Made by a program: the position numbers and the translations under genes
Shown here: in pieces, positions 53,159 through 61,581 of the stretch
Layout of the letters: every line of letters begins with the position of its first letter
Numbering within the stretch: position 1 is the first letter of the stretch
Origin: Sphingomonas jatrophae
GTDB taxonomy: Bacteria; Pseudomonadota; Alphaproteobacteria; Sphingomonadales; Sphingomonadaceae
Length of the DNA: 64,000 nucleotides
Assembly: GCF_900113315.1 (NCBI RefSeq)
Contig: NZ_FOZG01000001.1
Coordinates: 1,302,001 to 1,366,000 of the forward strand
Reading direction: 5' to 3'
The notes under the pieces: generated by a model
Database searches by the model: none
What the model was told of the DNA's origin: nothing
Seen by the model: the letters and a program-made list of their open reading frames with translations, nothing else

Positions 53159-54661
53159 ATGAGCGCATTCGGGCGTCGCGGCGGGCTTAACAGCGGATCG
53201 GGTGGACGCCCGGCCTTCGGCGTTGCGCGCCCGATGCAGGGCGGCGGCAGCGCGCCCGAGGGCGGCACGCAATTTCCGCCGCTGGAGCCGAGCTCCCTCT
53301 CGTCCGACCTCCCCGCCGGCCCCCACGCCGACGCGATGGCCCGCCTGACCGAGCGGCAGGCTGCCAGCGGCGAGGCGGGTCGCTCCGTCGTCGAGGGGTT
53401 CGAGGCGTCGGTCCACAAGATCAAGGAACAGGTGCTGCCGCGCCTGCTCGAACGCGTCGATCCCGAGGCGGCCGCCACGCTCAGCAAGGACGAGCTGGCC
53501 GAGGAATTCCGCCCGATCATCGGCGAGGTGCTGGCCGAGCTGAAGATCACGCTCAACCGGCGCGAGCAGTTCGCGCTGGAAAAGGTGCTGGTCGACGAGC
53601 TGCTCGGCCTCGGGCCGCTCGAGGAGCTGCTCAACGATCCGCTGATCACCGACATCATGGTGAACGGCCCCGAGCAGACCTACATCGAAAAAAAGGGCAA
53701 GCTCGAAATCGCGGCGATCCAGTTCCGCGACGAGGAGCATCTGTTTCAGATCGCGCAGCGCATCGTCAGCAAGGTCGGCCGCCGCGTCGACCAGACGACG
53801 CCGCTGGCCGACGCACGTCTCTCCGACGGCAGCCGCGTCAACGTCATCGTGCCGCCCTTGTCGCTGCGCGGCACCGCCATCTCGATCCGTAAGTTCTCGG
53901 CCAAGCCGATCACGCTCGACATCATGGCGGGCTATGGCTCGATGAGCCCCAAGATGGCGACGGCGCTGAAGATCGCCGGGGCCAGCCGCTTCAACATCGT
54001 CATTTCGGGCGGCACCGGCTCGGGCAAGACGACGATGCTGAACGCCCTGTCCAAGATGATCGACCCGGGCGAGCGCGTCATCACCATCGAGGACGCGGCC
54101 GAGCTTCGCCTCCAGCAGCCGCACTGGCTGCCGCTGGAAACGCGCCCGCCGAACCTTGAGGGTCAGGGCGCGATCACCATCCGCGATCTCGTCGTCAACG
54201 CGCTGCGTATGCGTCCGGATCGCATCATCCTGGGCGAGATCCGCGGGCCCGAATGTTTCGACATGCTGGCCGCCATGAACACCGGCCACGACGGCTCCAT
54301 GTGTACGCTCCACTCCAACAGCCCGCGCGAGGCGCTGGCGCGTATGGAGAACATGGTGATGATGTCGGACATCAAGGTGCCCAAGGAGGCGATCAGCCGC
54401 CAGATCGCCGACTCGGTCGATCTCATCATCCAGGTGAAGCGCCTGCGCGACGGTTCGCGCCGCGTCACCAACATCACCGAGGTGATCGGGATGGAGGGGC
54501 CGGTGATCGTCACGCAGGAGCTCTTCAAGTTCGAATATCTCGACGAGGATGCCGACGGCCGCATCAAGGGCGAATATCGCGCCATGGGCCTGCGCCCCTA
54601 CACGCTGGAAAAGGCCAAGCAGTTCGGCTTCGACCAGCCGTTCCTCGAGGCGTGCCTCTGA
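53159..54661 (+). CDS. cpaF: CpaF/TadA-type secretion ATPase
   Basis: A 500-aa type II/IV secretion ATPase of the CpaF group, which powers Flp/Tad pilus assembly at the inner membrane. After a Gly/Pro-rich N-terminus come GPLEELLNDPLITDIMVNGP, the Walker A GGTGSGKTT near residue 284, the Asp box TIEDAAELRL, Walker B RIILGEIRGPE and the His box STLHSNS-like CTLHSNSPREALARME. No other cpa/tad gene is adjacent in the window, so the ATPase gene is detached from its pilus cluster. Confidence 0.92.
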   Translation: MSAFGRRGGLNSGSGGRPAFGVARPMQGGGSAPEGGTQFPPLEPSSLSSDLPAGPHADAMARLTERQAASGEAGRSVVEGFEASVHKIKEQVLPRLLERVDPEAAATLSKDELAEEFRPIIGEVLAELKITLNRREQFALEKVLVDELLGLGPLEELLNDPLITDIMVNGPEQTYIEKKGKLEIAAIQFRDEEHLFQIAQRIVSKVGRRVDQTTPLADARLSDGSRVNVIVPPLSLRGTAISIRKFSAKPITLDIMAGYGSMSPKMATALKIAGASRFNIVISGGTGSGKTTMLNALSKMIDPGERVITIEDAAELRLQQPHWLPLETRPPNLEGQGAITIRDLVVNALRMRPDRIILGEIRGPECFDMLAAMNTGHDGSMCTLHSNSPREALARMENMVMMSDIKVPKEAISRQIADSVDLIIQVKRLRDGSRRVTNITEVIGMEGPVIVTQELFKFEYLDEDADGRIKGEYRAMGLRPYTLEKAKQFGFDQPFLEACL

Positions 54662-54693
54662 GCGCCTCGTCAGGCGCCCGGACATGACCTTCC

Positions 54694-54864
54694 ACCGTCG
54701 TCCTGAACTCGTTTCAGGATCCGCCGTGCGGCATGCACCGGCGGCCGCGGGTAACGCCCCACACCGTCATCCCGAACTTGTTTCGGGATCCACCGTGCGG
54801 CGAGAGCCGGCGGCCGAAGGTCAGGCCGCCCGGTGGATGCTGAAACAAGTTCAGCATGACGAGG
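54694..54864. repeat. Cluster of intergenic palindromic repeats (CCGTCATCCTGAACTTGTTTC family)
   Basis: Two direct copies start at 54694 and 54763 (69 nt apart), each with a GTCnTCC(T/C)GAAC...GTTTC(A/G)GGATCC core followed by GCCGTGCGGC or ACCGTGCGGC. A third, inverted copy lies at 54831-54864. Each core is itself palindromic. The cluster fills the gap between cpaF and the membrane protein gene, and the reading frames through it are not real. Confidence 0.75.
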
Positions 54865-54875
54865 CTGGAACAGAA

Positions 54876-56318
54876 GTGCTTGCGCTATCCACCCGCCCGC
54901 TGCTCACCCTCGGCCTCATCCTCCTCGCACTTCCGCAGCTTCTCCTCCTCCGCTTCCTCGGCTTCGGCCTACCCGCGCAGGCGTTCGCCGCCGCCGCGCT
55001 GACCCTCGTCACCGCGGGCAGCGTCCGCGCGCTTGCGCCAGCCGCCATTCCGCTCCGCCGTCTCGCGCTGCTCGGCGCCGTCGCGCTCACGCTCTGCCTG
55101 CTCGGCGGCGAGGGGCGGCTCTTCTACGCCAACCCCGATTGGCAGGTGCGCGATGCGGTGCTGCGCGATCTCGTCACCTATCCATGGCCATGGGCCTATG
55201 CGGGGCCGGAGCCGCTCGTCCTGCGCCTGCCCTCCGCCATGTATCTGCTGCCCGCCCTCGTCGGAAAGGCGGGCGGGTTCCACGCGGCGGAGATCGCGCT
55301 GCTGATCCAGAATGCGGCTCTGCTCACCGCTTTGCTCGCGCTCGGCTCCACCCTGTTCGCCACCCGCCGCGCGCGCGAACTGGCCGCGGTGATCGCGATC
55401 GGCCTGTCGGGGATGGACCTGATCGGTGCCGCGATCGCCGGCGTGCGCCTGTCGGGCCACCTCGAATGGTGGACGATCACGCAATATTCGTCGCACCTGA
55501 CGATGCTCTTCTGGGTGCCCCAGCATGGGCTGGCGGGCTGGACCGCCGCCTTGCTCTATCTGCTCTGGCATCAGCGGCGGATCGCGCTGGTCGGGGCGCT
55601 CGCGCCGCTGCCGCTGCTGGCGTTGTGGTCACCGCTGGCGCTGATCGGCGTGCTGCCCTTCGCCGCCCATGCCGGGATCGCCACGCTGGCCCGGCGTGGG
55701 CTGCGGCCGATCGACATCGCCCTCCCCGCGCTCGCCTGCGCGGTCGCGTTGCCGGGCCTGCTCTATCTCGCCGCGGGCAGCAGCAGCGTCGGCTCGCGAC
55801 CCGCCCCCCTGCCCTTCGCCGTGTGGGCGCTGTTCGTCGGACTCGAGGTGTTGCCCTTCCTGCTCGCGCTCGGCGCGACGCGCGCGGGCATGCGCTTCGG
55901 CGGCATCACCCTCGCGCTCGTCGCCGCCACCTTGCTCGTCGTGCCCTTCATCCAGATCGGCCAGTCCGCCGACTTCGCGATGCGCGCCTCGATGCCCGCA
56001 CTGGCGATCCTGGCGGTGATGCTGGCCGATCTGCTCGCCCGTAACGGCGCCACCCGCGAGTATCGCCTGTGGCAGGGCATCGCCGCCTTCGCATTGGCGA
56101 TCGGCTTCGTCACACCGCTCAACGAGCTTCGCCGCGCACTCACCTTCCCCACCGCGCCGCCGCCCTTGTGCAGCTATCTCGGCGTCGTGCCGGGGGGTGC
56201 CGACACCTATGTCGCGCCGCTCGCCCGCCTGCCCGACTGGATCCGCCCCACAGCACCCGCGATGATCGTGCCGCACGATCCGCCGCGCTGCTGGGCGCGC
56301 GACTGGCCGACGCCCTAG
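54876..56318 (+). CDS. Polytopic membrane protein, possibly a GT-C-type glycosyltransferase
   Basis: About 480 aa with roughly ten to twelve hydrophobic helices and no soluble domain of note. An acidic stretch after the second or third helix (YANPDWQVRDAVLRDLVTYP) sits where GT-C glycosyltransferases carry their catalytic loop, but no family motif can be confirmed. GTG 54876 is chosen because the frame upstream runs through the palindromic repeat cluster; ATG 54837 lies inside the repeat. The extreme C-terminus overlaps the small opposite-strand frame by 4 nt. Confidence 0.65.
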   Translation: MLALSTRPLLTLGLILLALPQLLLLRFLGFGLPAQAFAAAALTLVTAGSVRALAPAAIPLRRLALLGAVALTLCLLGGEGRLFYANPDWQVRDAVLRDLVTYPWPWAYAGPEPLVLRLPSAMYLLPALVGKAGGFHAAEIALLIQNAALLTALLALGSTLFATRRARELAAVIAIGLSGMDLIGAAIAGVRLSGHLEWWTITQYSSHLTMLFWVPQHGLAGWTAALLYLLWHQRRIALVGALAPLPLLALWSPLALIGVLPFAAHAGIATLARRGLRPIDIALPALACAVALPGLLYLAAGSSSVGSRPAPLPFAVWALFVGLEVLPFLLALGATRAGMRFGGITLALVAATLLVVPFIQIGQSADFAMRASMPALAILAVMLADLLARNGATREYRLWQGIAAFALAIGFVTPLNELRRALTFPTAPPPLCSYLGVVPGGADTYVAPLARLPDWIRPTAPAMIVPHDPPRCWARDWPTP

Positions 56319-60781: not shown

Positions 60782-60807
60782 GTTCGTCATCCGTTCAACG
60801 CCCGTTC
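60782..60807 (+). promoter_or_regulatory. Three GTTC words at exact 11-bp spacing (SOS-box-like or direct-repeat operator)
   Basis: GTTC occurs at 60782-60785, 60793-60796 and 60804-60807, giving GTTC-N7-GTTC-N7-GTTC. GTTC-N7-GTTC is the published LexA box of alphaproteobacteria; evenly spaced direct repeats are also typical of OmpR-family response regulators. The site is about 70-90 nt before the DUF4136 lipoprotein gene. Confidence 0.45.
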
Positions 60808-60822
60808 AGTGCACTTGGCCGA

Positions 60823-60840
60823 TAAGCCCTTCCGGGCTTA
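60823..60840 (+). other. Perfect hairpin in the leader of the DUF4136 gene
   Basis: TAAGCCC-TTCC-GGGCTTA, a 7-bp stem with a tetraloop, 34 nt before the start codon. No U tract follows, so a leader or operator role is more likely than termination. The remainder of the 241-bp gap after trpS shows nothing else. Confidence 0.4.
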
Positions 60841-60873
60841 CCATCCGGTGTCGCCCGCATGAGGTCCGCTTCC

Positions 60874-61527
60874 ATGTCGCTTAGTCGCACGATCTTCACG
60901 CTCGCCGCGCCAGCGGCGCTGCTCGCGCTGTCCGCCTGCGCCACGCCCTTCAAGGCGGATGTCGCGCGCTTCCAGCAGATGCCGCCGCCTGCCGGGCAGA
61001 GCTTCACCGTCCAGGCGGTCAACCCGCGCAACCAGGGCGGGCTCGAGTTCCAGCAATATGCCGGCATCATCAGCCAGGCGCTCGTCGCGCAGGGCTATCA
61101 GCCCGCGGCCAATCCGCGTTCGGCCACCTTCGTCGTGAACGTCGATTACGGCGTCGATAACGGCAACGAGAAGGTCGTCTCCACGCCGGGCTTCGGCGGC
61201 TATGGCGGTCCGTGGGGTTATGGCGGTTTCGGCGGCTGGGGCGGGTATCGCCGCGGCGGCTTCGGCGGCTGGGGCTGGGGCTGGAATGACCCCTTCTTCT
61301 ACGGCCCGCAGGTCGACAGCTATACCTACTATACCAGCTATCTCGACATGACGATCAACCGCACCGCGGATGGGCAGCGTCTGTTCGAGGGCAAAGCCAA
61401 GGCCCGCTCGCGCACCAACAGCCTGCCGACGCTCGTGCCGAACCTGGTCGAGGCGCTGTTCACCGGCTTCCCCGGCCGCAATGGCGAAGAGGTCCGCATC
61501 ACCGTGGCGCCCCCGCCCCGCGGCTGA
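60874..61527 (+). CDS. DUF4136-domain lipoprotein
   Basis: About 217 aa. The N-terminus is a lipoprotein signal with lipobox LSAC near residue 20, so it is anchored to a membrane by its Cys, probably the outer membrane. The mature protein has the DUF4136 fold pattern (QVNPRNQGG-like AVNPRNQGGLEF, YGVDNGNEKV, GLPTLV-like NSLPTLVPNLVEALFTGFPG), interrupted by a Gly/Trp/Tyr-rich insert (about residues 105-140, GGFGGWGGYRR). GAGG 9 nt upstream favours ATG 60874; ATG 60859 is an alternative. Function unknown. Confidence 0.82.
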   Translation: MSLSRTIFTLAAPAALLALSACATPFKADVARFQQMPPPAGQSFTVQAVNPRNQGGLEFQQYAGIISQALVAQGYQPAANPRSATFVVNVDYGVDNGNEKVVSTPGFGGYGGPWGYGGFGGWGGYRRGGFGGWGWGWNDPFFYGPQVDSYTYYTSYLDMTINRTADGQRLFEGKAKARSRTNSLPTLVPNLVEALFTGFPGRNGEEVRITVAPPPRG

Positions 61528-61549
61528 GACGACCCCGTCCGAACACAGC

Positions 61550-61581
61550 AACGCCGCCCGGTCCCGCGACCGGGCGGCGTT
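61550..61581. terminator. Bidirectional terminator between the DUF4136 gene and dnaA
   Basis: A perfect 14-bp stem, AACGCCGCCCGGTC (61550-61563) with its complement at 61568-61581, around CCGC. On the plus strand it is followed by a T-rich run (TCTGCTTT). It lies between convergent genes. Confidence 0.8.

Follow-up and report, generated by a model that had tools for sequence, protein, structure and literature searches.

The GTTC direct repeat that precedes a DUF4136 lipoprotein gene in Sphingomonas jatrophae is, judging by sequence comparison, very probably a binding site of FeuP, an envelope-sensing regulator, and the lipoprotein gene is very probably one of a small co-controlled set of cell-envelope genes. 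We hold with high confidence the explanation as a whole, in which a FeuP-type site at 60793-60808 serves class II activation under FeuQ signalling as part of a joint envelope regulon. The kind of motif and the kind of regulator are already known from Sinorhizobium meliloti. For Sphingomonadales, no description of FeuP with an envelope regulon was found in the literature searched, which covered a minority of subscription papers.

Layout and conservation of the site

In the window, the whole 64,000-nt stretch of DNA analysed here, GTTC words start at 60782, 60793 and 60804, so the 11-bp period given in the first-pass annotation is exact. The second and third words contain a TTCA-N7-TTCA direct repeat (60794-60797 and 60805-60808) and read as two predicted FeuP-type half-sites GTTCA on the plus strand, half-site 1 at 60793-60797, which lines up with RTTCAA in the alignment of 65 dereplicated sites, and half-site 2 at 60804-60808, 11 bp further on. 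The upstream word, GTTCG (60782-60785, plus strand), is a possible extra half-site. A predicted -10 element, GATAAG (60821-60826, plus strand), lies 12 nt past half-site 2. It has two mismatches to TATAAT, and its second base falls on the position that holds A in 95% of the 65 orthologue sites; the site was not picked up in the own-genome search by the motif pattern demanding TA at N11-13. Transcription is predicted to start near 60833.

The gene downstream (60859-61527, plus strand), read as a DUF4136 lipoprotein gene, gives a PF13590 match (E 5.3e-19) and carries a lipobox-like LSAC read by eye. Its first ATG is at 60859, but translation may really begin at the ATG at 60874, which has a Shine-Dalgarno-like TGAGG 9 nt ahead. 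Upstream, on the same strand, lies a gene for a Trp/Tyr-class tRNA synthetase (probably trpS), and dnaA lies downstream on the opposite strand. Between the convergent DUF4136 gene and dnaA, a GC-rich inverted repeat followed by a T-rich stretch (61545-61580, seen by eye) faces dnaA and is likely their terminator. A search of solved structures for DUF4136 gave one weak match (E 0.0024). A DUF4136 gene adjoins a two-component system in a Burkholderia biofilm operon (PMC5192318), a neighbourhood that is suggestive and that we kept out of the evidence. Elsewhere in the window, the N-terminal part of an open reading frame at 54549-56318 holds repeated PELVSGS-type peptides, which are perhaps translated intergenic palindromic repeats and not protein.

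Within the window, GTTC-N7-GTTC occurs four times against 0.98 +/- 1.07 expected, a count reached in 3 of 100 shuffles. In the 4.06-Mb genome there are two exact copies of the GTTC triple, and 11 copies against 5 for the reversed pattern when up to one mismatch is allowed. Taken alone, the triple is borderline against chance, and the significance of the site comes from its conservation rather than from these counts.

A DUF4136 match is present in 58 of 59 related genomes. For the comparison, 110 DUF4136 loci were assembled from the best 30 matches in the 59 related genomes and the top 80 among 180 relatives in named genome contigs; some probably come from the same genome twice (for example L028 and L115), and start codons were picked mechanically. 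At 70 of the 110 loci, TTCA-N7-TTCA lies no more than 260 nt from the start that was picked, and at 103 the relaxed form TTCA-N7-TT(C/A)A is present; of the other seven, TTAA-N7-TTCA is seen at five and neither word at L043 and L047. After light dereplication, which retained 95 of the 110 upstream regions, TTCA-N7-TTCA remained in 67 of 95 against a shuffle mean of 0.14 (1000 mononucleotide shuffles, maximum 2). In the 95 regions, 70 TTCA pairs stand 11 bp apart, and no other distance from 4 to 40 has more than 5.

An alignment of 65 dereplicated sites, drawn from 94 distinct ones, gave the consensus RTTCAA-N5-RTTCA(G/T)-N12-TA. Because sites were selected for their TTCA/TTAA halves, with A or G preferred ahead of the first half, information comes from the remaining columns only. 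Ahead of the first TTC stands A in 54% and G in 46% of the sites; the first TTCA is followed by A in 92%, and position +28 holds A in 95%. Many Sphingopyxis loci (L058, L063, L069 and others) carry TTAA in place of the second TTCA, and L026, L050, L066, L073 and L083 carry it in place of the first; these changes move the half-sites toward a CtrA-like word.

The upstream repeat (60782-60785) and the hairpin, both recorded in the first-pass annotation, fared differently from the TTCA pair. An extra GTTC at offset 11 appears in 5 of 103 orthologue sites (the window locus, L025, L029, L053 and L054), no more often than GTTC at offset 17, and all 27 regulator-operon sites examined lack it. The three-repeat form is not generally conserved; the extra repeat is not shown to matter and was rejected as an essential feature. 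A perfect 7-bp hairpin, TAAGCCC-TTCC-GGGCTTA, is indeed present 15 nt past the last GTTC (60823-60840). It overlaps the predicted -10 element and start, and its 5' arm would accordingly be missing from the predicted transcript. The 51-nt fold that holds it is unremarkable in energy (z = -1.29; matched by 18 of 200 shuffles), the stem occurs in none of the other 109 orthologue loci, and any perfect stem of at least 7 bp within 44 nt past the site was found at 4 of 88 sites. The hairpin was rejected as an RNA element and is probably incidental. The borderline counts in the window and the unconserved hairpin would suit a repeat and hairpin that arose by chance and have no function, but the conservation (67 of 95), the fixed spacing and the genome-wide excess of the motif over control make this explanation vanishingly improbable.

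The alphaproteobacterial LexA consensus is GTTC-N7-GTTC, and the window site fits it twice in tandem. On this ground the site had been proposed as a tandem LexA (SOS) operator, at which LexA would repress the lipoprotein gene until DNA damage occurs. We consider this reading highly unlikely. A lack of conservation of the 11-bp spacing, named in the first-pass annotation as refuting, was not what we found: the spacing is conserved, with TTCA as its word (67 of 95 upstream regions) and not GTTC, which forms the pair in 24 of 95. At orthologous promoters the GTTC form of both halves is not kept. The genome holds 94 GTTC-N7-GTTC words against 44 for the reversed control, 10 of which take the form GTTC-N4-TATGTTC. 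Nine of these ten were inspected, together with four other GTTC-N7-GTTC words. Four of the nine adjoin SOS-like genes, namely two imuA-like genes (matches below the cut-off of the ImuA model), a putative DNA-repair radical-SAM gene (TIGR03916) and an S24-peptidase regulator, while the neighbours of the other five are not recognisable as SOS genes. The words beside the imuA-like genes (L247, L371) are candidates for real SOS boxes of this genome. GTTC-N4-TATGTTC is absent at the window site, which reads GTTCAACGCCCGTTC, and the genes that share the window's motif are envelope genes. Conservation, the shape of the SOS-type words in this genome and the identity of the genes with the motif led us to reject the LexA operator, and control by DNA damage is not supported.

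The FeuP-type regulator and its co-occurrence with the motif

When the genome was searched with the pattern demanding TA at N11-13, two matches were obtained, one ahead of lolA and one (C6:498384) ahead of a regulator operon that encodes, in order, a small secreted protein, an OmpR-type regulator and a PhoQ-like kinase. Close matches to the regulator (E up to 1e-60) occur in 57 of the 59 related genomes, and TTCA-N7-TTCA lies upstream of the operon at 29 of 30 loci (its own and 29 relatives), L203 being the one without. The genome holds 11 matches to the OmpR-type DNA-binding domain, and among these regulator loci the FeuP-type locus alone carries RTT(C/A)A-N6-RTT(C/A)A in a scan of the first 1400 nt per locus, about 1 kb of it upstream of the regulator, with the receiver start of L161 not placed.

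The regulator shares 68% identity over 220 aa with the annotated FeuP of S. meliloti, whose gene adjoins annotated feuN and feuQ, and the kinase shares 32% identity with S. meliloti FeuQ (457 columns, E 3e-60). The small secreted protein holds the same gene position as FeuN, with which an alignment was attempted and none obtained; PepSY was matched in 11 of 13 members of its family at E up to 0.1 (0.092 for the member of this genome). Among 25 NCBIfam models listed for the regulator, PmrA came first and PhoP fifth, none reaching its cut-off. PhoQ was the best match of the kinase, and the scores of both proteins stay well short of the equivalog cut-offs for PhoP and PhoQ.

The S. meliloti counterpart extends to the DNA. 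Upstream of S. meliloti feuN we found ATTCA-N6-ATTCA-N12-TAATGA, and a start-site study of that species proposed TTCA-N7-TTCA (Motif 3), ahead of 12 genes of which five are known to be FeuP-dependent, as a candidate FeuP site (PMC3616915); the S. meliloti site is itself a candidate only. Across the class, RTTCA-N6-RTTCA stands upstream of 17 of 26 regulator loci, two of them at odd positions, the 26 including three that are the second match in their genome. The window site shows these features of a FeuP-type operator: TTCA-N7-TTCA placed 12 nt before a predicted -10 element, in a genome that encodes a FeuP orthologue whose own operon carries the site.

The regulator was counted in 115 alphaproteobacterial genomes at E up to 1e-60, a threshold that may admit some paralogues (51-57% identity in a few), and was present in 24. 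These 24 genomes gave 41 motif matches against 6 for the control, with matches in 17 genomes. The 91 genomes without the regulator gave 23 against 19, with matches in 21 (Fisher p = 2e-5 by genomes, 7e-4 by matches). The motif exceeds its control only where a FeuP-type regulator occurs.

Use of the site by another OmpR-family regulator, be it CtrA, CenR, ChvI or an unnamed paralogue, is in our estimate unlikely. The CtrA word, TTAA-N7-TTAA, has the same 11-bp direct-repeat geometry, TTAA fills the second half at many Sphingopyxis sites, and the genome offers its 11 OmpR-type domain matches. Against such a regulator, none of the ten other loci carries the repeat in its first 1400 nt (with the same proviso for L161), and the motif excess tracks the presence of a FeuP orthologue. 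CenR of Rhodobacter sphaeroides also shares the geometry; its published site is TGA-N8-TGA and CenKR is reported absent from Sphingomonadales, and on these two grounds it was rejected as the binder (PMC9275681). ChvI was rejected too, its published motifs, GCC-N8-GCC and TTGC-N3-GCAA (PMC9731502), not fitting the site by eye. The FeuP-type reading is supported by spacing, regulon, autoregulation and co-occurrence, and the first-pass suggestion of an envelope-stress regulator at a direct-repeat response-regulator site is borne out in this form.

Genes sharing the motif

Across 39 Sphingomonadaceae genomes, RTTCA-N6-RTTCA-N12-TA gave 106 matches against 3 for the reversed pattern, with at least one match in 36 of the 39. 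By downstream gene, 28 precede the regulator operon, 19 a DUF4136 gene and 59 other genes. These 59 comprise 17 LolA genes (in 16 genomes), 13 secreted TPR proteins, 7 DUF2141 proteins, 4 FeuN-like small proteins, 4 Tyr/Gly-rich lipoproteins (a cluster for which no Pfam match was found), 2 each of SIMPL, CreD and MlaC, and 8 singletons. Family names come from one representative per cluster, and the four FeuN-like small-protein sites (G024, G059, G060, G062) were assigned by similarity clustering alone. The CreD-type genes, which encode inner-membrane proteins, carry a FeuP-type site in two genomes (L329, L333). In genome G009, identical lolA upstream sites lie near both contig ends (C2:15614 and C2:2574773; L316 and L319); this duplicate, counted twice among the 17 LolA genes, is perhaps an assembly overlap.

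In the window's own genome, RTTCA-N6-RTTCA-N13-A has seven exact matches. Six precede genes for a Do-family (DegP-type) protease, LolA, a TPR protein, MlaC, the regulator operon and DUF4136, and the remaining one precedes a 142-aa protein with a hydrophobic N-terminus. The protease site (L169, G000:C5:721032-721061) reads ATTCA-N6-GTTCA and lies 92 nt before its gene. A scan allowing up to one mismatch returned 40 matches against 11 for the control; among the 30 of these that were inspected, the inexact matches mostly look like coding sequence or chance hits. One inexact match (L181) precedes a SIMPL gene, and another (L185, G000:C5:284752) precedes a gene that by eye resembles rpoH (sigma-32). 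Since CenR controls rpoH1 in Rhodobacter, FeuP might control rpoH here.

Proposed mechanism and comparison with known systems

In the mechanism we propose, envelope disturbance would lead FeuQ, the PhoQ-like kinase, to phosphorylate FeuP, and the small secreted PepSY-like protein of the same operon would restrain FeuQ. Phosphorylated FeuP would bind the two half-sites head to tail, standing in for a -35 element, and would recruit RNA polymerase, a class II activation like that of PhoP at its "architecture I" promoters (PMC3335776). DUF4136, LolA, MlaC, DegP and other products would be raised together, and the FeuP-type operon would feed back on itself. FeuN is described in a preprint as a periplasmic inhibitor of FeuQ (PMC12486126), and the gene order suggests that the sphingomonad small protein may act like it. 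The wider proposal concerns Sphingomonadales as a group reported to lack CenKR: FeuP-FeuQ would serve as their stress response for outer-membrane and lipoprotein homeostasis, with FeuQ, restrained by the PepSY-like protein, sensing damage to the envelope. The response would raise LolA for lipoprotein carriage, MlaC for lipid transport, DegP for proteolysis in the periplasm, and a DUF4136 lipoprotein with a part in the same repair. We judge this broader proposal evenly balanced between right and wrong; if true, it would put the DUF4136 family in a physiological context.

On the FeuP-type reading, an isolated repeat becomes a candidate operator whose regulator can be named and whose regulon is short, and the FeuP site is extended from S. 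meliloti to Sphingomonadales. FeuPQ would be linked to lipoprotein carriage and lipid transport, and the little-understood DUF4136 lipoprotein would be placed in a probable envelope pathway.

The closest known system is that of S. meliloti. It shares with the sphingomonads the TTCA-N7-TTCA word and its spacing (PMC3616915), the place of the repeat relative to a -10-like element at feuN, a regulator of 68% identity and the order small protein, regulator, kinase. The small proteins differ to the point that their sequences are not alignable, and so do the targets: those named for S. meliloti FeuP are ndvA and feuN, among about 14 genes in all (PMC3616915), unlike the DUF4136, LolA, secreted TPR, MlaC, DegP-type protease, DUF2141, SIMPL and CreD genes of sphingomonads. 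CenR resembles the FeuP-type system in its 11-bp direct repeat and in controlling envelope genes, MlaC and rpoH1 being part of its regulon, and differs in half-site and regulator, CenKR being reported absent from Sphingomonadales (PMC9275681). The geometry of the site equals that of PhoP promoters of architecture I in Salmonella. These are described as class II, with two directly repeated hexamers separated by five nucleotides and lying 12 nt ahead of the -10 element, and the PhoP targets include phoP itself and the lipoprotein gene slyB (PMC3335776). The GTTNA direct repeat, the 11-bp period and the end 12 nt before the -10 element are common to the PhoP box and the window site, whereas the enterobacterial half-site is GTTTA (PMC3335776) and that of the window site GTTCA. 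With equal geometry and one base of difference per half-site, the comparison suggests that PhoPQ and FeuPQ have a common promoter design.
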